Positions 10,034 through 58,057 of a DNA stretch of 64,000 bases are shown piece after piece. Under the pieces are notes generated by a model, which searched no databases, was not told the origin of the DNA, and worked only from the letters and a program-made list of their open reading frames with translations. The position numbers and the translations under genes were made by a program. This DNA comes from Gordonia sputi NBRC 100414 (GTDB taxonomy: Bacteria > Actinomycetota > Actinomycetes > Mycobacteriales > Mycobacteriaceae), in assembly GCF_000248055.1 (NCBI RefSeq), contig NZ_BAFC01000022.1, positions 62,001-126,000 on the forward strand. Direction: 5' to 3'. How positions within the stretch are numbered: position 1 is the first letter of the stretch; every line of letters begins with the position of its first letter.

Positions 10034-10291
10034 CTACTTTCGCTTCAAGCGGTTCCGGCCGATGAACCATCCCGCGATCACGCCCGCGAGCGCGATGATC
10101 GTGAGGACGAGCCACAACGACGCTCCGACGTGGATGAACAAGAAATTGATGCGCACGTGCTGCGTGTTCTGCGCGATGAAGATGACGCCCACAACGATGA
10201 GCACGAGTGGAATCCAGTTGCGTGCGGCGAGTCCGAGCAACTTCGACGACGTCGTCTGCCCTGTTGAACTGCCCTCGGTGTTCGCGGTCAT
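10034..10291 (-). CDS. LapA-domain (DUF1049-like) small membrane protein
   Basis: 85 residues with two membrane segments, NWIPLVLIVVGVIFIAQNTQ and LWLVLTIIALAGVIAGWF, joined by the short turn VRINFLFIHVGAS. It ends in a basic GRNRLKRK tail. The QNTxxVxxxF pattern between two helices is typical of the LapA/lipopolysaccharide-assembly-A domain family, of unclear function in actinobacteria. It converges on ribD with 3 nt between stops. In M. tuberculosis this spot holds Rv1410c/lprG, so the reverse-strand gene here is a local replacement. Confidence 0.8.
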   Translation of the reverse strand: MTANTEGSSTGQTTSSKLLGLAARNWIPLVLIVVGVIFIAQNTQHVRINFLFIHVGASLWLVLTIIALAGVIAGWFIGRNRLKRK

Positions 10292-10476
10292 TGCGACACC
10301 GCCTTCCCATGAGTTTGAACCAAAGCGGCTGTACTGAACTTTGCGGTTGTACTGACTCTGCGGTGGGCGATGAACGCCCGCTGATCGGAATTATCACCCG
10401 GTGAGGGGCACCGGTGGCGGATTGCGGGTTTCGGGTGAGTGTCGCACCGCTTCACCTGCGTGCTAGCGTCGAATGC

Positions 10477-10633
10477 AGACGTTCTCGGGGCGGGGTGAAA
10501 GTCCCCACCGGCGGTGAGTGGTCGCGATCAGGTCGCGTCGACAAGCCCGCGAGCGCCCGGCCGCCAGGTCGGGGTCAGCAGATCCGGTGTGATTCCGGAG
10601 CCGACGGTCATAGTCCGGATGCGAGAGAACAAG
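10477..10633 (+). ncRNA. FMN riboswitch (RFN element)
   Basis: The conserved RFN blocks occur in order: GTTCTCGGGGCGGGGTGAAA, then AGTCCCCACCGGCGGTGA, AGCCCGCGAGCG, GGTCAGCAGATCCGGTG, ATTCCGGAGCCGACGGTCAT and AGTCCGGATGCGAGAGAAC. The first and last blocks pair (GTTCTC with GAGAAC) to close the junction. It senses FMN and should lower riboflavin-gene expression when FMN is abundant. It lies 122 nt upstream of ribE on the same strand. TAGCGT at 10464-10469 could be the -10 of its promoter. Confidence 0.96.
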
Positions 10634-10634
10634 A

Positions 10635-10650
10635 CGGCACAGGTGTGCCG
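10635..10650 (+). promoter_or_regulatory. Hairpin after the FMN aptamer (possible expression platform)
   Basis: CGGCACAGGTGTGCCG is a perfect self-complementary 16-mer starting 2 nt after the aptamer. It has no T-run, so a classical terminator is unlikely. It could be part of a translation-control or Rho-dependent platform in the 121-nt stretch before ribE, or an insulating stem. Pairing with the aptamer was not modelled. Confidence 0.35.
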
Positions 10651-10754
10651 CCCTGTCCGCCCCACGCGGGTTGCCCATTGTGTTCGCGCAGAACACGGCG
10701 GGTTATCCGGAACGCAGTGGGTCGCCCGCAACGAGGGCAGGACAGGAGCGCATA

Positions 10755-11405
10755 TTGTTCACCGGCATCGTCGAAGAACTCGGCACGATCGTCGCGCGCG
10801 ACGACCTTTCGGATTCGGCCCGATTCACCATTTCCGGACCGCTGGTCACCTCTGACGCCTCACACGGAGACTCGATCGCGGTCAACGGTGTGTGCCTGAC
10901 CGTAGTGGAGTTGTCGTCCGACGGCGCGTTCACGGTCGATGTGATGGCCGAATCCCTCAATCGCAGCTCGCTCGACGTCCTCGCGACCGGCAGCCGCGTC
11001 AACCTCGAACGCGCCATGGCCGCAGACGGCCGCTTCGGTGGGCACATCGTCCAGGGTCACGTCGACGGAACCGGCACGGTGACCGCGGTGACGCCCTCCG
11101 AGCACTGGACCGTCGTGCGGATCGCCGTTCCCGACACACTGTCGCGCTACCTCGTCGAGAAGGGATCGATCACCGTCGACGGTGTGTCCCTCACCGTGTC
11201 CGCCATCGGTGGCGACCCCGCTGGGCAGGGGCAGAGCTGGTTCGAAATTTCCCTGATCCCCACCACGTTGAACGAGACGAACTTGGGTACGGCGCAGGTG
11301 GGTGCCGTGGTCAACCTCGAAGTCGACGTCATCGCCAAGTACGTCGAACGTCTTGCGTCGGCAAACACCACCGCAACACCCGCGGACGCAGCAGGAGTGA
11401 AGTGA
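10755..11405 (+). CDS. ribE: Riboflavin synthase, alpha chain
   Basis: Dismutates two 6,7-dimethyl-8-ribityllumazine molecules to riboflavin; 216 residues. Two tandem lumazine-binding barrels are visible: [10 protein letters not shown] to about residue 95, with the VNGVCLTV motif, and [15 protein letters not shown] onward, with VDGVSLTV. The family N-terminus is MFTGIVEE, so the start must be the TTG at 10755. AGGAG at 10744-10748, 6 nt upstream, supports it. The longer upstream open frame runs through the riboswitch leader. The stop is embedded in GTGA at the ribBA junction. Confidence 0.94.
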
Positions 11406-49561: not shown

Positions 49562-50698
49562 TCAGACGTCGGACCAGCTGTGGCCGGTCGCCGCACCGCG
49601 CGCGATGGCCATCCCGGTTCGCATACCGACGCCCTTCACCACGCGGCCCATCGCCTCGAGTGTGCCCGGGAGGTTGTCACGCTCGCTGAGGTAACTGCGT
49701 TGGGCGTCGATCGGCATGGTGAAGAAGGCGTCGAAGAAGTCGAGGGTCTGCTCGGCCGAGAGATCCAGCAGCGCCGACAGACCGCGGATTCGGAGTTCGT
49801 GCACCGAACGTGCCGACGTCGGCCACAGGGCCGCTGCGGGGTCGGCGCCGTCCGCAATCGCGGTCGCGACGTCGTCGGCACAGGCCAGCGAGGTGGCGAC
49901 GCTGTAGCCCGTCGTCGGATTCTTCATCCCGCCCGCCGCGCCGAACCGGAAAACCGAGTCTCTCCACGGCGTCGTCGACGCGCCGACGAGCGGGAAGTTC
50001 ACCACCTCGGTGCGGAGCGCGGTCGGCTCATGGTCGCCCAACCGCACCCGGAGACGATGTTCGAGCTCTGGGATCGACAGCGCGGGATGCCCTGCGAGAC
50101 AGGTCTCTTCGAGCAGCACAGTCCCATCAGCGAGCGGCACGGCGTAGAGAAACGACGGAAGTGGTGAGCCTGCGGCACCGAGTCGGCGGGGACTCGCCCA
50201 CTCCATCAGTAGCGTGTCGGCGCCGTCGAGTACCGCCGCCGCGTCCTTCGCGTCGACGACGATTCCGAACGCGGTTTGGTACGGGGCGTCATGCGGCAGC
50301 GCACCGCGACAGTCGATGATCTGATCGGCCTGCACGACCGAGCCGTCAGCGCACACCACCCGATCAGCGGACACCGACGTCGCTGCCGATGTCACGAGAG
50401 ATATCCCGCCGAGGTCCAATTCGGTTGCGAGAGCGACATTGTCGAGAACTGTGTATCCGCGCGCGATGTGGTGACGGGTCCGCGCAGACACCTGCACGGC
50501 GTCGGTCTGCGCTGCTATGGCGTTGTCGCTCAACCAGTTCGGCAGTTCGTCGGTCCATGCCGCATAGGTGGCGTGCCACGCCCTGTCCGGGTGGGGATCG
50601 ACGAGAGTGGTATCCACCCCGTGGTGGCGCAGGCGATGGGCCAGGCCTCTGCCCGCCGGACCGCCACCCACGACCACCGCCGAACGGGACACGGTCAC
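49562..50698 (-). CDS. crtL: Lycopene beta-cyclase (CrtL/LcyB type)
   Basis: FAD-dependent cyclase that closes the beta-ionone rings of carotenoids; 378 residues. The N-terminus VTVSRSAVVVGGGPAGRGLAHRL is the dinucleotide-binding fold, IIDCRGA is a typical middle block, FLYAVPLADGTVLLEETCLAG the substrate region and FRFGAAGGMKNPTTGYSVATSL the later signature. GTG 50698 overlaps the SDR stop by GTGA. No other carotenoid gene lies in the window, so it is detached from its pathway. It is transcribed with the SDR and toward the TetR gene. Confidence 0.9.
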   Translation of the reverse strand: MTVSRSAVVVGGGPAGRGLAHRLRHHGVDTTLVDPHPDRAWHATYAAWTDELPNWLSDNAIAAQTDAVQVSARTRHHIARGYTVLDNVALATELDLGGISLVTSAATSVSADRVVCADGSVVQADQIIDCRGALPHDAPYQTAFGIVVDAKDAAAVLDGADTLLMEWASPRRLGAAGSPLPSFLYAVPLADGTVLLEETCLAGHPALSIPELEHRLRVRLGDHEPTALRTEVVNFPLVGASTTPWRDSVFRFGAAGGMKNPTTGYSVATSLACADDVATAIADGADPAAALWPTSARSVHELRIRGLSALLDLSAEQTLDFFDAFFTMPIDAQRSYLSERDNLPGTLEAMGRVVKGVGMRTGMAIARGAATGHSWSDV

Positions 50699-51501
50699 AT
50701 CGATCCGGTGGCCAACAGTCCGCCGTCGACCTGCAAGGTCTGACCGGTGATCCACGACGCGTTGTCGCTGACGAGGAAGGCGGCAGCCTGCGCGATGTCT
50801 TCCGGGTTACCGAGTCGCCGCAGCGGATAGCCGGCAATCGCGCGCTCTTCGTTGTCGCCCGCGATGAGTGCGTCGGCGAACTTCGTCTTGACGATGGCAG
50901 GCGCGATCGCGTTGACGCGGATCTGCTTGGGTCCGAGTTCCCACGCGAGCTCCGCGGTCAGGCGGATCAACGCGGCTTTCGACGCGCCGTAGGCGGCGAT
51001 GACCCCGGTGGAGCGGATTCCGGCGACCGAGGCGATGTTGAGCACAGCTCCTCCTGATTCGGCCATGCCCGCCCGATAGGCCTCCTGCACGAACCCGAGG
51101 GCGGCGACCACGTTCGTGTCGAAGATCTTGCGTACCGCGTCGAGATCGGCGTCGACGAGCGGCCCATACGTCGGGTTGATTCCCGTGTTGTTGACCAGTA
51201 TGTCGATTCCGCCCCCGAGCCGCACCGCGGTCGCAACGGCGTCGGCCCGATGAGCGGCGTCGCCGGTGTTGCCGGGACAGATGTCGACCTTCGCCCCGTC
51301 AACCGCAGTCCGGATCGACTCGGCTGCCTGCTGCAGCGGTTCGGGTTTACGGCCGGTGATGACCACCGTGGCGCCTCGACGGGCGAGTTCGGTGGCGATG
51401 GCCAATCCAATGCCGCGGCTCGCGCCGGTGACGAGTGCGGATCGCCCGGTGAGATCGGGTGTCGGCAACATTCCGGTGGGTTCAGCTGTGCGTTCGGTCA
51501 C
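50695..51501 (-). CDS. SDR-family oxidoreductase
   Basis: 268-residue classical short-chain dehydrogenase: NAD(P)-binding ALVTGASRGIGLAIA near residue 22, NNTGINPT near 108, catalytic Ser in NIASVAGIRS, Tyr and Lys in AAYGASKAAL near 167-176 and a C-terminal DNASWITGQTLQVDGG. It is FabG-like; the substrate is unknown. It overlaps the lycopene cyclase by GTGA, so carotenoid processing is one possibility. The order with crtL is not one I know. Confidence 0.9.
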   Translation of the reverse strand: MTERTAEPTGMLPTPDLTGRSALVTGASRGIGLAIATELARRGATVVITGRKPEPLQQAAESIRTAVDGAKVDICPGNTGDAAHRADAVATAVRLGGGIDILVNNTGINPTYGPLVDADLDAVRKIFDTNVVAALGFVQEAYRAGMAESGGAVLNIASVAGIRSTGVIAAYGASKAALIRLTAELAWELGPKQIRVNAIAPAIVKTKFADALIAGDNEERAIAGYPLRRLGNPEDIAQAAAFLVSDNASWITGQTLQVDGGLLATGSM

Positions 51502-51573
51502 CCTGCCACCGTATCGAGCGACGTGAGGAAGTCGCGGCCGCCCGGGGAGGAAAAACCACGGGCCGGCGCACAG

Positions 51574-51579
51574 TAGACT
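51574..51579 (+). promoter_or_regulatory. Putative -10 element for a leaderless ABC-F transcript
   Basis: TAGACT (TANNNT) is followed by 8 nt and the GTG start of the ABC-F gene at 51588. No ribosome-binding site is present in between. Confidence 0.45.
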
Positions 51580-51587
51580 GGACCGTC

Positions 51588-53216
51588 GTGATCACCGCGA
51601 CCGACCTGGAAGTTCGAGCGGGCGCTCGGACCCTGCTGTCGGCGCCCGGCTCAGCTCTGCGTATTCAACCCGGCGACCGGATCGGCCTCGTCGGCCGCAA
51701 TGGTGCAGGTAAGACGACCTCGCTGCGCATTCTCGCGGGCGAGACCGAACCCTACGCCGGGACGGTGACCAGGACCGGCGATCTCGGCTATCTGCCGCAG
51801 GACCCCAAAGAAGGCGACCTCGACGTCGTCGCCCGCGATCGAGTGCTGTCGGCGCGTGGCCTCGACGACATCATGCATCAGATGGAGAAGCAGCAGGCGT
51901 TGATGGCCGAGGCCGCCGACGACAAGGTGCGCGACAAGGCTGTCGCACGCTACGGGCGTCTGGAAGAGCGCTTCTCCGACCTCGGCGGCTACGTCGCCGA
52001 GTCCGAGGCCGCGCGCATCTGTAACAGCCTCGGATTGCCCGATCGCGTACTCGGCCAGCCGCTGCGCACGCTCTCGGGCGGACAGCGCCGTCGCATCGAG
52101 CTCGCCCGCATCCTGTTCGCAGCCTCCGACGGTTCGGGCAAATCTGCGACGACGCTGCTCCTCGACGAGCCGACCAACCACCTCGACGCCGACTCGATCA
52201 CCTGGCTGCGCAGCTTCCTGCAGAACCACGAGGGTGGACTCGTGGTGATCAGCCACGACGTCGACCTGCTGGCCGACGTGGTCAACAAGGTGTGGTTCCT
52301 CGACGCCGTCCGCGGCGAGGCCGACGTCTACAACATGGGCTGGAAGCGCTACCTCGACGCACGCGCAACCGACGAGCAGCGTCGTAAGCGTGAGCGCGCC
52401 AATGCGGAGAAGAAGGCGTCCGCGCTGCGCGCACAGGCTGCAAAGCTCGGCGCCAAGGCCACGAAAGCCACTGCGGCACAACAGATGCTCAAGCGTGCCG
52501 ATCGGATGATCGATTCCCTCGACGAGGAGCAGGTGGCCGACCGCACCGCCCGGATTCGCTTCCCGGAGCCTGCGGCGTGTGGCAAGACTCCGCTGATGGC
52601 GTCGGGACTGAGCAAGTCCTACGGCTCGCTCGAGATCTTCACCGGCGTCGACCTCGCGATCGACAAGGGCAGTCGTGTGGTCGTGCTCGGACTCAACGGT
52701 GCGGGTAAGACCACCCTGCTCAAGGTGCTCGCCGGTGTCGAGGCGTCGGATACGGGTTCGCTGGAGCCCGGCTACGGACTCAAGATCGGCTACTTCGCGC
52801 AGGAGCACGACACCCTCGACGACATGGCGACGGTGTGGGAGAACATTCGGCACGCCGCGCCCGACGCAGGCGAACAGGATCTTCGTAGCCTGCTCGGTGC
52901 CTTCATGTTCACCGGACCTCAGCTCGACCAACCCGCAGGCACGCTGTCCGGTGGCGAGAAGACGCGACTGTCGCTGGCAGGACTCGTGTCGTCGGCGGCC
53001 AACGTGCTGCTGCTCGACGAGCCGACCAACAACCTCGACCCGATCTCGCGCGAGCAGGTGCTCGACGCCCTGCGCAGCTACACCGGCGCCGTGGTCCTCG
53101 TTACTCACGACCCCGGTGCCGCGGCGGCGCTCGATCCGCAACGCGTGATTCTGCTGCCCGACGGCACCGAAGACCACTGGAGCGACGAGTACCAGGAGCT
53201 CATCGAGCTCGCGTGA
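51588..53216 (+). CDS. ABC-F family ATPase (translation factor)
   Basis: 542 residues with two ATPase domains and no membrane part, the ABC-F architecture of ribosome-associated translation factors such as EttA. Domain 1: Walker A GRNGAGKT at 36-43, signature LSGGQRRRIELARILF and Walker B LLLDEPTNHLD. A lysine-rich linker (about residues 260-320) follows. Domain 2: GLNGAGKTTLLKVLAG, LSGGEKTRLSLAGL and LLLDEPTNNLD. GTG 51588 gives the family start VITATDLEVRAG. It is the ortholog of M. tuberculosis Rv1473 by position, length and family. Its substrate or antibiotic link is not shown by the sequence. Confidence 0.95.
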   Translation: MITATDLEVRAGARTLLSAPGSALRIQPGDRIGLVGRNGAGKTTSLRILAGETEPYAGTVTRTGDLGYLPQDPKEGDLDVVARDRVLSARGLDDIMHQMEKQQALMAEAADDKVRDKAVARYGRLEERFSDLGGYVAESEAARICNSLGLPDRVLGQPLRTLSGGQRRRIELARILFAASDGSGKSATTLLLDEPTNHLDADSITWLRSFLQNHEGGLVVISHDVDLLADVVNKVWFLDAVRGEADVYNMGWKRYLDARATDEQRRKRERANAEKKASALRAQAAKLGAKATKATAAQQMLKRADRMIDSLDEEQVADRTARIRFPEPAACGKTPLMASGLSKSYGSLEIFTGVDLAIDKGSRVVVLGLNGAGKTTLLKVLAGVEASDTGSLEPGYGLKIGYFAQEHDTLDDMATVWENIRHAAPDAGEQDLRSLLGAFMFTGPQLDQPAGTLSGGEKTRLSLAGLVSSAANVLLLDEPTNNLDPISREQVLDALRSYTGAVVLVTHDPGAAAALDPQRVILLPDGTEDHWSDEYQELIELA

Positions 53217-55233: not shown

Positions 55234-55773
55234 TCAGGGCCGCTCCGTCGGTCCAGCCACGATGCCCGACAACTGCACGCGCTTGCCGACGTCCCGCGTG
55301 CTGACGTGACCGACGGGAGTGGCCAGGATCTCGTGGTGATCGGTGGCGTCGGACTCGACGTGAATCGTCCCCGCCGCTCCGTTCTCAACGTATCCGCTCG
55401 GGGCCGCCACCTCACGGGCGCGGTAGCAGCCTGTCGGGAGGGTACGAATCAGCAGGCCCCGTGCATCGGTCGCTCCCGACCCGCGTGGGTGCCCGGCACA
55501 CGTCGTGATCGCGAATCGCGCGCCCGGCAGCGGGTGGCCGTCGATGCGGTCGCGAACAGCGATTCGCAGTTGGCCTGAGCCGTCGTCGAATCCGCCGTTG
55601 CGTTCGACCCCGGTTCCGATGGACCGACTCGGTTCCTGGTCTCGCGTCGTCACGGTGAACGTTCCCGAACCGGGTGCGGCCGAGGCGGCCGCCGACGCTC
55701 CGACGATTCCGGCGAGCGCCATTGCGCCGACAACCGTGAGAGTCGTTGTCACACGGACGAATCGGCCGTTCAT
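55234..55773 (-). CDS. Secreted SpaA/Cna-B-like protein with RxxLSxIxxGPxERP tail
   Basis: 179 residues: signal peptide (VTTTLTVVGAMALAGIVGASAAASA), then one SpaA/Cna-B-like beta-domain (LRIAVRDRIDGHPLPGARFAI to TPVGH). A cysteine pair, ITTCAGH and PTGCYRAREVAAPSGY, matches that in the protein at 56363. The Lys expected for an isopeptide bond is Val here. The extreme C-terminus is KRVQLSGIVAGPTERP, close to that of the two other secreted proteins. There is no LPXTG signal and no hydrophobic tail. ATG 55773 overlaps the sortase stop by ATGA. Probably a sortase substrate or partner, by inference. Confidence 0.8.
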   Translation of the reverse strand: MNGRFVRVTTTLTVVGAMALAGIVGASAAASAAPGSGTFTVTTRDQEPSRSIGTGVERNGGFDDGSGQLRIAVRDRIDGHPLPGARFAITTCAGHPRGSGATDARGLLIRTLPTGCYRAREVAAPSGYVENGAAGTIHVESDATDHHEILATPVGHVSTRDVGKRVQLSGIVAGPTERP

Positions 55774-56366
55774 GCTCGCGTCGCCCACGCGATGATGTTG
55801 TCGGCGTAACCGAGCGGGGGACCGACGAACGCCCCGCCACACGTGACGAGGGCGAGGGTTTCCGGACCGTCGAGGCGGTTGAGTTCCTCTGCGGGAAAGC
55901 CCTTCTCCTTATCGGCCTTCTGGACGTTACGCACCCGGTAGTGGACGGTCTCACCCTTCGCTGTGGTGACCGCGACATCGGTTCCCGGTGCGAGAGAACT
56001 GAACCGGGCGGCGAAGCCACGCCCCTGCGAGGCCTCGTCGACGTGCCCGGTCACGACGATTGTGCCCTTGCCCGATCCGGGTAACGCCGAATCGACCCAC
56101 CAGCCGAGACGATGGACGTCCTGTGGCGGCAGGAGCGCACCGGTCGTATCCGTCGCAACCGCATCGGTGACAGCGGAATCACCGCCGACCTCAATACTTT
56201 TCGGTGCGGCCGGCTCGTCGGTGCGTGCGGCAACGGGTGCGGGTAGCTGGGTCTGCGCAGACGGTGTTGCCACGGACGATTCGCTCGTGCGTGTCGAGCA
56301 GCCGACGAGAAGCGTCAGACTCAGAGCCAGCAGGCAGAACAGTGTGCGTATCGGCGTGGTCTTCAT
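55770..56366 (-). CDS. Class F sortase, lipoprotein type
   Basis: 198 residues. The N-terminus has a lipobox, LTLLVGC with Cys23, so the enzyme is probably membrane-anchored through a lipid. The sortase domain has the catalytic His in IVVTGHVDEA at His108 and the catalytic Cys in LALVTCGGAF at Cys176. The arginine expected 12 residues after the Cys (family YRDN) is Ala188 (GYADN). ATGA overlaps link it to the SpaA-like genes on both sides. Actinobacterial class F sortases mostly lack known substrates; the flanking proteins are candidates. Confidence 0.85.
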   Translation of the reverse strand: MKTTPIRTLFCLLALSLTLLVGCSTRTSESSVATPSAQTQLPAPVAARTDEPAAPKSIEVGGDSAVTDAVATDTTGALLPPQDVHRLGWWVDSALPGSGKGTIVVTGHVDEASQGRGFAARFSSLAPGTDVAVTTAKGETVHYRVRNVQKADKEKGFPAEELNRLDGPETLALVTCGGAFVGPPLGYADNIIAWATRA

Positions 56367-57313
56367 GGTCGATCCACCGGTCCCGACGGAATCGACGACA
56401 GCGATGTCCTGCCCGACGGATTGCGGTCGGTCACGTGGTCGACGGGGGTGTTGTAGACCGTCACCGTCGACACCTTGTCGGTGGACACGTCGACGGTGTA
56501 CGAGCGACCCTCGGGCACATAGCCTTTCGGTGCCGCCGTCTCCTTGACGCGGTAGCAGCCCGGTGCCACCTCACGGTTGACCACGCCGCCTTCGCCGGTG
56601 GTTTCCCACCCCAGCACGTCTCCGGAGCATGTGGACACGATGAAGCTCGCCCCCGGCAGCTTGGCGCCGGTGACTCTGTCGGCCTTGACCACCTGCAGGG
56701 TTCCGGTGCGATCTCCGCCGTCGTCGATGCGTGCGAAGGAAATCTGGATGTGGTTGCCGAGCAGTCCGAGTTCGACTGTGCCGCTTCCCGAAATCAGCCT
56801 CAACCCGTCGGGCCAGCTGATCGTCTCGTAGCTGTAGGTTCCCACGTTCAGGGTCAGATCGGCGGGGGCGGTCACCATCGTCACCGCGCCGGTTTCGTTG
56901 TTGGTGAGACGTACCCGAGCGCCCTGCACCGGCGTGATCCCGCCGGGATATGGGATGAACGATGTGACATAGAGATGTGCGGTCCCGGACTCCGGAGGAG
57001 TGGTCGGAGAACTCGGGGTTGTCGATGTCGGCGCTTCGACGGTCGTCGACGGCCCGGGCGCGGAGGTGCTCGGTGCCGACGAACTCGGGAGTGACGGATC
57101 GGTGGTGGCGGGTGTCGTGGTTGGGGGCGCCTGCGTCGTCGGCTGGTCAGCGGTCGTGGCGGGTGCCACGGTGGTCGACGACGTTGACGGGGTATCCGCC
57201 CAGCCGACCGCGGGAGCCATCGCAAGGCTGAGAAGCATCCCCGTTGCGAGGGCTGCGGTGCGTGTCCGCGGAGTGCGGAACCTGGTGTGGTGCTTGGGTG
57301 ATCGATTCGACAT
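56363..57313 (-). CDS. Secreted two-domain SpaA/Cna-B-like protein with Thr/Pro stalk and conserved C-terminal motif
   Basis: 316 residues: signal peptide ending about ...GWA-DT, a Thr/Pro/Ser-rich stalk (about residues 40-110), a first beta-domain (AHLYVTSFIPYPGGITPVQG to HIQISFARI) and a SpaA-like domain starting near TGTLQVVKADRVTGAKLPG. Its Lys (VVKAD) and Glu (RVKETAAPKGY) fit an isopeptide bond. It also has the cysteine pair FIVSTCSGD and APGCYRVKE. The C-terminus is GRTSLSSIPSGPVDRP. ATG 57313 gives the natural signal peptide. The stop overlaps the sortase ATG by ATGA. The 132 nt before it hold a CCCGAC/GTCGGG stem (57344-57364) that could be attenuator-like. Confidence 0.82.
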   Translation of the reverse strand: MSNRSPKHHTRFRTPRTRTAALATGMLLSLAMAPAVGWADTPSTSSTTVAPATTADQPTTQAPPTTTPATTDPSLPSSSAPSTSAPGPSTTVEAPTSTTPSSPTTPPESGTAHLYVTSFIPYPGGITPVQGARVRLTNNETGAVTMVTAPADLTLNVGTYSYETISWPDGLRLISGSGTVELGLLGNHIQISFARIDDGGDRTGTLQVVKADRVTGAKLPGASFIVSTCSGDVLGWETTGEGGVVNREVAPGCYRVKETAAPKGYVPEGRSYTVDVSTDKVSTVTVYNTPVDHVTDRNPSGRTSLSSIPSGPVDRP

Positions 57314-57445
57314 GGGAGTGAGCCTTTCGGTGGGGTGGACGGCCCCGACACCCGTGAAGTCGGGTAGGCCAATCGATTCGTTATCGCGAGGGGCCCGCGG
57401 AGGGCGGAAATCATTCATGTGTCGTACGGCCTGAGAACGTGTGGC

Positions 57446-58057
57446 TCAGGGCCGGTCGACTGGCCCTGAGGGAATCGAGCTCAGCGGAGTGCGTGCGCCC
57501 GGATCACGGCCGGGAGCCACGGTTCCCGGACCCGACGTTCCCGTTGCGGTGAGGTGAATCGTGTAGATCGTGTCCCGACCGCGCTCGAGCGCGATATCGA
57601 ACGACGACGGCCCGACGAGCGTCAGTCCCGCAGGCACCTGCAGCACAAGAACACTCACCGTCCCGGTCGGGGACTGCACGGTCGCGGGCAGGGTCGTGAC
57701 GTACGGATTGACCGCGACCAGACGCACCGACACACCGTTGACCCCGTCGTGGGCGCCGTCGAGCACAGCGTTGATCGTCACGGACCCGTAAGCGACAGGG
57801 CTTGTGGGCGCGGAGGTTTCGGTGCTCGCGGGTGTACTCGGGGGTGTTGAGGACGAAGGTGGGGTGGTCGTCGGCGGTGTTGTTGTTGGCGGTGTCGTCG
57901 GCGGCGTTGTTGTCGTCGGTGCTGTGGTGGATGGGGTGGTTACCGACGGCGCGGACGTGCCGACGTCGGCGTGGGCACCACCCACCCCGAGAGACAGGCA
58001 CGCCGCGACGACGGCGACCGTACTCGAGAATGAACGGAAATACGTGACGGTACGCAT
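57446..58057 (-). CDS. Secreted Thr/Pro-rich protein with conserved C-terminal motif
   Basis: 203 residues. A signal peptide (SSTVAVVAACLSLGVGGAHA) is followed by a long Thr/Pro/Ser stalk (residues about 31-85) and a single beta-domain (SVTINAVLDGAHDGVNGVSV to DTIYTIHLTAT). This domain resembles the first domain of the protein at 56363: both have (A/N)GVSVRL/ARVRL and a GxxL turn. The C-terminus, ARTPLSSIPSGPVDRP, is nearly identical to that protein's end. No sorting-type membrane helix follows. It lies 132 nt upstream of the 56363 gene on the same strand, so the three proteins and the sortase form one locus. Confidence 0.8.
   Translation of the reverse strand: MRTVTYFRSFSSTVAVVAACLSLGVGGAHADVGTSAPSVTTPSTTAPTTTTPPTTPPTTTPPTTTPPSSSTPPSTPASTETSAPTSPVAYGSVTINAVLDGAHDGVNGVSVRLVAVNPYVTTLPATVQSPTGTVSVLVLQVPAGLTLVGPSSFDIALERGRDTIYTIHLTATGTSGPGTVAPGRDPGARTPLSSIPSGPVDRP

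Follow-up and report, generated by a model that had tools for sequence, protein, structure and literature searches.

A 64,000-nucleotide stretch of the genome of Gordonia sputi NBRC 100414 (contig NZ_BAFC01000022.1, positions 62,001 to 126,000; hereafter the window) carries on its minus strand four consecutive genes, which encode two secreted proteins (A and B), a sortase, and a third secreted protein (C), in that order, with ATGA overlaps at the B/sortase and sortase/C junctions. The three secreted proteins share a C-terminal tail, which we propose is very probably a sorting signal for the sortase encoded beside them. The features of the locus, in window coordinates, are as follows.

57446..58057 (stop codon included), minus strand: candidate substrate A, a small protein with a signal-peptide-like start (by eye), a Ser/Thr/Pro-rich linker and no Pfam domain.
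57464..57478, minus strand: pentapeptide S-I-P-S-G of A, followed by PVDRP and the stop; the putative scissile bond is S|G, in a register taken from related loci.
56363..57313, minus strand: candidate substrate B, with a SpaA (prealbumin-like) domain, PF17802.
56381..56395, minus strand: pentapeptide S-I-P-S-G of B, followed by PVDRP and the stop.
55770..56366, minus strand: sortase (class F-like), with lipobox LLVGC and with H108, C176 (in TCGG), Y187 and N190 invariant.
55234..55773, minus strand: candidate substrate C, with a SpaA domain, PF17802; the start codon, at 55773, overlaps the stop of the sortase gene.
55252..55266, minus strand: variant pentapeptide G-I-V-A-G of C, followed by PTERP and the stop.

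The start of B was placed by eye at 57313 (MSNRS..., with GAAAGG upstream) rather than at 57418. Judged by eye, the N-termini of A, B, and C all resemble signal peptides, and the proteins are presumably exported by that route. The SpaA domain scored 58.1 bits in B and 36.2 bits in C (cut-off 23.1). Inspection by eye also indicated that the domain of C lacks the lysine at the expected internal isopeptide site (VVKAD in B, IAVRD in C) and that a pair of cysteines is kept in both proteins.

An earlier note, made from the sequence alone, had called attention to C-terminal tails common to the three secreted proteins, and all three are in place, each directly before a TGA codon: ARTPLSSIPSGPVDRP in A (57449-57496), GRTSLSSIPSGPVDRP in B (56366-56413), and KRVQLSGIVAGPTERP in C (ending at 55237). 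The tails of A and B are identical at 14 of 16 residues, and a recount agreed exactly with the note in finding that the codons for 11 of these 14 residues differ synonymously, with three codons identical. Of the 595 frames in the window that stay open for 60 codons or more, a looser form of the pattern, picked after the tails had been seen, matched 3, exactly A, B, and C. When the same pattern was applied to 80 loci from named relatives (kept from 105 relatives found in a scan of 84,980 species, which partly overlap the family set described below), it matched 65 of 7,627 frames of that length versus 6 of 38,135 shuffled C-termini, and none of the matches lay opposite to the sortase strand. In the whole 4.95-Mb genome the sequence GP-[TAIMV]-[DE]-R-P stands before TAA or TGA at just three sites, the three tails in the window. 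The sharing of tails exceeds chance. The note had also argued against a recent duplication or coincidence, the reading that the agreement of A and B at 14 of 16 residues might suggest; to this we assign practically no probability, both on account of the synonymous differences and because it is refuted by the cross-genus pattern, in which unrelated domains in several genera keep the tail.

The motif as first proposed included the ending GPxDRP. That ending proved to be local, and what stands for the family as a whole is the core R-x-x-[LIV]-x-x-[IV]-P-[SAT]-G, after which the protein runs on for 3-6 residues, or for 12-15 in Corynebacterium. An alignment of 48 tails from 45 loci, in which the Corynebacterium extensions measure 12-13 residues, gave [RP]-[ND]-x-x-x-R-x-P-[ILV]-x-S-[IV]-P-[SAT]-G; Arg at -10, Pro at -3, and Gly at -1 are present in all 48 tails, as are [LIV] at -7, [IV] at -4, and [SAT] at -2. 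The tails had been gathered with a pattern presetting [LIVM](-7), [SKQ](-5), [IV](-4), [PVA](-3), [SAT](-2), and G(-1), and of the conserved positions only R(-10), together with the preference for P at -3, therefore escapes circularity. Protein C, with G-I-V-A-G, deviates at -5 and -3 and stands outside the set. After the glycine, Arg or Lys is found in 44 of the 48 tails and Asp or Glu also in 14. The absence of a membrane helix, as the note supposed, was borne out: no helix follows the pentapeptide in 65 tailed proteins (no locus contributing more than two), whose last 40 residues reach an 18-residue Kyte-Doolittle mean of at most 1.01.

The proteins that carry the tail are otherwise unrelated. 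Some, of the B type, have SpaA domains, others have VaFE and T-Q repeats (three T-Q ester-bond stretches in a protein of C. minutissimum and 10, plus 10 VaFE repeats, in one of C. tuberculostearicum), and the tailed neighbour in Rhodococcus qingshengii resembles TIGR04089 (51.9 bits, under the cut-off of 60); as in A, no Pfam domain was found in the tailed protein of Williamsia. The tail is independent of the domain type of its carrier. Among 14 B-type proteins the mean pairwise identity was 0.63 for the tail versus 0.43 for the SpaA domain, and in 83 of 91 pairs the tail was the more similar of the two. A second tailed SpaA-like protein is encoded in Gordonia spumicola (10059-10919 of its locus, L135), about 4 kb downstream of the sortase.

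The window sortase scores 52.7 bits against PF04203 (cut-off 26.6) and is the only match to that model in the genome; its nearest named relative, from G. jacobaea, is 99% identical over the sortase domain. By fold it is a sortase, with pilus-type class C enzymes among the best structural matches and the top entries of classes A and E within about 1 Z. The catalytic H108 and C176 are invariant in an alignment of 46 sortases and in 61 of 61 sequences of another. Searches of the Protein Data Bank gave no match by sequence, with one protein, and distant sortases only by profile (best E 2.6e-06). Among NCBIfam classes the best was class F (NF033748), at 83.8 bits for the window sortase and 63.7-80 for four relatives, all of which miss the curated cut-off of 166; no class B model was among the NCBIfam matches listed for the window sortase. 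Relatives from Tsukamurella and Amycolatopsis are labelled class F sortases in RefSeq. Because the cut-off is not reached, we do not claim membership in class F, though it is the nearest class. The Gordonia-type enzymes have a lipobox and no N-terminal membrane anchor, and their Corynebacterium relatives have a hydrophobic segment.

How closely the tail keeps company with this sortase was examined in a family set of 301 genomes searched with the sortase protein. Some match was found in 141 of them; we took as the clade the 48 genomes with a match at E<=3.1e-26, the next match standing at 1.2e-22. Loci extending up to about 6 kb to each side were available from 46 of the 48 (40 of Gordonia/Rhodococcus/Tsukamurella type and 6 of Corynebacterium; genome G231 was not included), and the window made a 47th. 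A tailed open reading frame (ORF) adjoins the sortase in 46 of the 47, the sole exception (L073) being a contig of 5,133 bases in which the sortase match begins 160 bases from the end. A profile built from 35 tails (A1), to which G231, its sortase cut by the contig end, did not contribute, matched 47 genomes at E<=4.3e-4, all of them among the 48 with the clade and none among the 253 without; the next match was at 0.0019, and at E<=1 the matches, in 281 of the 301 genomes, were background. A second, broader profile (A5) at E<=4.9e-4 found the same 47 of 48 and one of the 253 others (G193). The profiles were built from sortase-adjacent tails and the figure of 47 of 48 is therefore partly built in, but the near-absence elsewhere and the unlinked tails described below are not. 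The note had made its proposal depend on whether the motif is widespread in genomes lacking the sortase, and by these counts it is not. In a phylum sample of 396 genomes, no tail was found at E<=0.003 beyond that of the genome itself and one match with an internal stop.

The match in G193 lies 23 residues before the stop of a 105-codon frame nested inside a 352-codon frame on the same strand, and we take it to be false. Weaker A5 matches (0.001-0.05) occurred in 29 more genomes free of the sortase; the three of these that were inspected (G250, G068, and G131) and the second A5 matches of four sortase-bearing genomes (G122, G245, G097, and G074) were likewise taken for false. The match in G131 falls 17 residues before the stop of a 45-codon frame nested in a 732-codon frame; in the other six at least 28 residues follow the match, and G250 reads I-P-C-G.

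Among the 80 loci of named relatives, the tail was found beside the sortase in 35 of 37 from Gordonia, Rhodococcus, Tsukamurella, Williamsia, Antrihabitans, and related metagenome-assembled genomes, the two misses (L159 and L160) being truncated by contig ends, and in 24 of 30 from Corynebacterium. Sortases of Micromonospora (0 of 13 loci) and the more distant sortases of Mycobacteriaceae (0 of 14) were rejected as bearers of bare tails. Five of the six Corynebacterium misses hold tailed proteins elsewhere in the genome: five on four contigs in C. lowii, two in C. mastitidis, one in C. oculi, one in Corynebacterium sp. MSK297, and, in Corynebacterium sp. zg-331, two matches, both at contig ends and with the same tail. 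Four Corynebacterium genomes that had passed for tail-less exceptions were struck off as such after A5 and the T-Q repeat proteins revealed unlinked tailed proteins. No PF04203 match other than the clade sortase was found in C. lowii, sp. zg-331, or sp. MSK297; the number of matches is two in each of C. mastitidis, C. oculi, and C. macginleyi and four in each of three other Corynebacterium genomes. Since the tail accompanies the sortase even when unlinked to it, recognition in trans is implied.

More distant sortases of the same type are present in 77 of the 396 phylum genomes (E<=1e-12) and in 14 of 200 genomes from another family of the order (E<=1e-27). A script labelled the neighbours of the sortase in 152 loci: the 80 named loci, the window, the 14 distant Mycobacteriaceae loci, an Amycolatopsis plasmid, and 40 phylum and 16 other-family matches. 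A bare tail was found in 60, a helix-tailed neighbour in 65, and neither in 27. In 45 of the 65 helix-tailed neighbours, [VI]-x-[STA]-G occurs at most 28 residues before the helix, as in GVPSGTGGQA, AVPAGNAGL, RVDAGSAGL, and GVQTGAGGTA, and an Arg-rich end follows the helix. When the same stretches were shuffled in 1,000 runs, the mean was 4.0 and the maximum 11, and only 3 of 40 other helix-tailed ORFs of those loci carry the motif. The 20 helix-tailed neighbours without it comprise 12 from Micromonospora with GPATGFGG, six with GPHTG, GMQTG, AVNTGSP, HSPGTAG, AINGG, or AIDGG, and two ORFs (in L181 and L251) that are unlikely to be genuine genes. Set in the LPXTG register these signals read x-[VIP]-x-[TSA]-G, which both S-I-P-S-G and G-I-V-A-G of the window fit. 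The stretches of the form x-[VI]-x-[STA]-G plus helix are thus candidate signals for the class F-type sortases of other actinobacteria.

A quick tree of the sortases (142 columns, 152 rows, rooted on one distant sequence; the program warned of few columns and of long branches, including that of the Amycolatopsis gene) placed the Gordonia-type enzymes (38 rows), those of Corynebacterium (30), and the Amycolatopsis plasmid gene in one group with an SH-aLRT of 99. The SpaA protein of that plasmid ends in ...VVVRQVTAGPVSAAAAAAAE, which we read as a divergent bare tail, though the script did not so label it. Over the tree the label changes between helix and bare twice, one of the changes probably being the doubtful L181. 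As S-I-P-S-G matches the helix-type pentapeptide in the LPXTG register, the helix was probably lost once, in the lineage whose Gordonia-type sortases are lipoproteins.

From the tail itself, its tie to the clade, its independence of domain type and gene linkage, the pentapeptide register, the lack of a helix, the sortase fold, and the conserved His and Cys, all computed here, we consider it very probable that the tail serves as a minimal, helix-free signal for cell-wall sorting, cleaved at [SAT]|G, and that the protein then becomes attached to the envelope. The note's proposal that the co-encoded sortase recognizes a signal other than LPXTG thus gains support both from the co-occurrence and from the pentapeptides of the same kind, with a helix, beside related sortases. 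A, B, and C would be exported by their signal peptides, with no C-terminal helix to hold them in the membrane, and the lipid-anchored sortase (membrane-anchored in Corynebacterium) would catch them by R-x-x-[LIV]-x-x-[IV]-P-[SAT]-G. Cys176, with His108, would attack the [SAT]|G bond, cleaving peptides that end in ...RVPIASIPSGRTL or ...RTSLSSIPSGPVDRP, to give a thioester and to release a short tail (GPVDRP for A and B). The thioester would be resolved by an amine of the envelope (the side chain of diaminopimelate in peptidoglycan is the likeliest candidate, a lysine of a neighbouring subunit the other), and the adhesins would thereby be covalently attached to the envelope. We infer the cleavage site, the acceptor, and covalency from general sortase chemistry. 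As for how such a system arose, we see an even chance that a class F-type system became, in one mycolic-acid lineage, a means of catching and attaching free exported proteins, the helix being lost and recognition lengthened upstream (R-x-x-[LIV]); in the Gordonia/Tsukamurella/Rhodococcus branch the sortase would be a lipoprotein, and adhesins would be captured between the membrane and the mycomembrane and fixed to the envelope.

Several observations weigh against a sorting signal acted on by this sortase. Ten of the 27 loci with neither kind of neighbour are among the 14 distant Mycobacteriaceae sortases. C. macginleyi (L175) has the sortase, and profile searches found no tail in it. A1 missed Corynebacterium tails that A5 found, and the negative results are therefore not absolute. 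Most Gordonia-type genomes have only neighbouring substrates, so that much of the association reflects one co-inherited locus. Finally, in the class E sortase SrtE1 of S. coelicolor an arginine (R329) directly follows the Tyr of strand 8, according to PMC5148588, but Arg occupies the matching position (as aligned by sequence alone) in only 7 of 41 clade sortases and in none of 6 from Corynebacterium, and neither alignment, of 46 or of 61 sequences, has an invariant Arg column; catalysis may therefore differ or may use another residue. We had entertained loss of the canonical Arg as a speciality of the clade and dropped the idea, as the position varies in 14 related enzymes too (Arg in three). 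In the clade it is mostly Glu or Ala, and neither Tyr187 nor the Asn three residues later varies.

The acceptor might instead be the lysine of another subunit; the sortase would then join tailed proteins to one another in a pilus-like or cross-linked fibre, and would not anchor them one by one to peptidoglycan. An operon with three substrates, two of them bearing the SpaA domains common in pilins, would suit a fibre, as would the class C enzymes among the best structural matches; most of the fetched loci, however, have a single tailed protein beside the sortase, and Pfam identified both Corynebacterium substrates submitted to it as long T-Q repeat proteins. We hold a fibre to be possible but rather unlikely. 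Less likely still is that the sortase mainly trims the tail by hydrolysis, releasing proteins that act in the medium. No membrane helix holds the substrate before cleavage, and AbpA of oral streptococci, with a similarly short tail, is described in PMC4974636 as being partly in the supernatant. But the substrates here look like adhesins, with Ser/Thr/Pro-rich stalks or T-Q repeats, and related sortases adjoin helix-tailed and hence presumably membrane-held proteins.

A docking or export motif, or a binding site for another factor, linked to the sortase through operon inheritance only, might be suggested by a tail so short and devoid of the hydrophobic half of known sorting signals. Against it, sortase-bearing genomes have tails even where these are not linked to the sortase, the 253 sortase-free genomes yielded at threshold no tail with A1 and one apparently false match with A5, and a matching pentapeptide is found beside related sortases. 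This we judge very improbable, and the binding site for another surface factor that the earlier note had offered as its second choice is not needed to explain the data.

As to known systems, the closest parallel to a minimal sorting signal is AbpA/SrtB of oral streptococci, in which KAGKALPKTSAVK without a helix anchors the protein, as PMC4974636 reports from experiment. There too a sortase gene is paired with an exported adhesin whose pentapeptide-like motif is followed by a very short tail that lacks a hydrophobic helix. That system, however, has a sortase B and LPKTS and is reported from oral streptococci only, whereas here a class F-like lipoprotein sortase and [IV]-P-[SAT]-G are found in several genera of Mycobacteriales and with several substrate families. 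As both motif and sortase class differ, the Mycobacteriales system looks like a second, independent case. With LPXTG signals the tail has in common its C-terminal place, a five-residue core, and a small residue and Gly at the fourth and fifth places; it differs in having no Pro at the second place, no helix, a short tail only, and a conserved R-x-x-[LIV] upstream. Class F (NF033748) is the best-scoring curated class, but the window sortase is under its cut-off, and a Micromonospora relative that passes (172.1 bits) has neighbours with helix-type signals. Class E SrtE1 (PMC5148588) shares the actinobacterial sortase fold and a non-Pro residue at P3, but its substrates are LAXTG and it has the Arg after the strand-8 Tyr that is mostly absent here. 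Literature searches by peptide strings and topic found no description of the tail motif in titles or the starts of abstracts, with subscription journals largely and preprints wholly outside their reach.

A 2026 paper (PMC13251363) gives the physiological roles of class F sortases as unknown, reports no phenotype upon deletion of four of them in Actinoplanes, and describes a search for substrates by LPXTG-like motifs followed by a helix and a basic end. A search of that design would be blind to bare-tailed proteins, and LPXTG searches would also miss the x-[VI]-x-[STA]-G plus helix candidates beside class F-type sortases. The motif yields testable candidate substrates in Gordonia, Rhodococcus, Tsukamurella, and Corynebacterium, among them a C. 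tuberculostearicum adhesin of at least 1,834 residues. It suggests that the helix, usually counted as part of the sorting signal, may be dispensable over a whole lineage, and it may offer a short tag (about 18 residues) for ligating soluble proteins.

Finally, we note some neighbouring genes. Seventeen plasmid records match the sortase, of which two were examined. In one of them (L239, NZ_LR134444.1, from Tsukamurella tyrosinosolvens "plasmid 2") the SpaA-sortase pair adjoins genes for an SDR oxidoreductase and an ABC-F protein, and what look by eye to be the same two genes are present in the window at 50695-51501 and 51459-53216. The neighbourhood of the pair thus seems to be conserved between the window and this record, which may be a chromosomal piece. 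Downstream of the sortase, four Corynebacterium loci (L173, L179, L181, and L182) share a repeat protein ending in ...LPDIPQS[IV], whose neighbour we take to resemble a mycolyltransferase.

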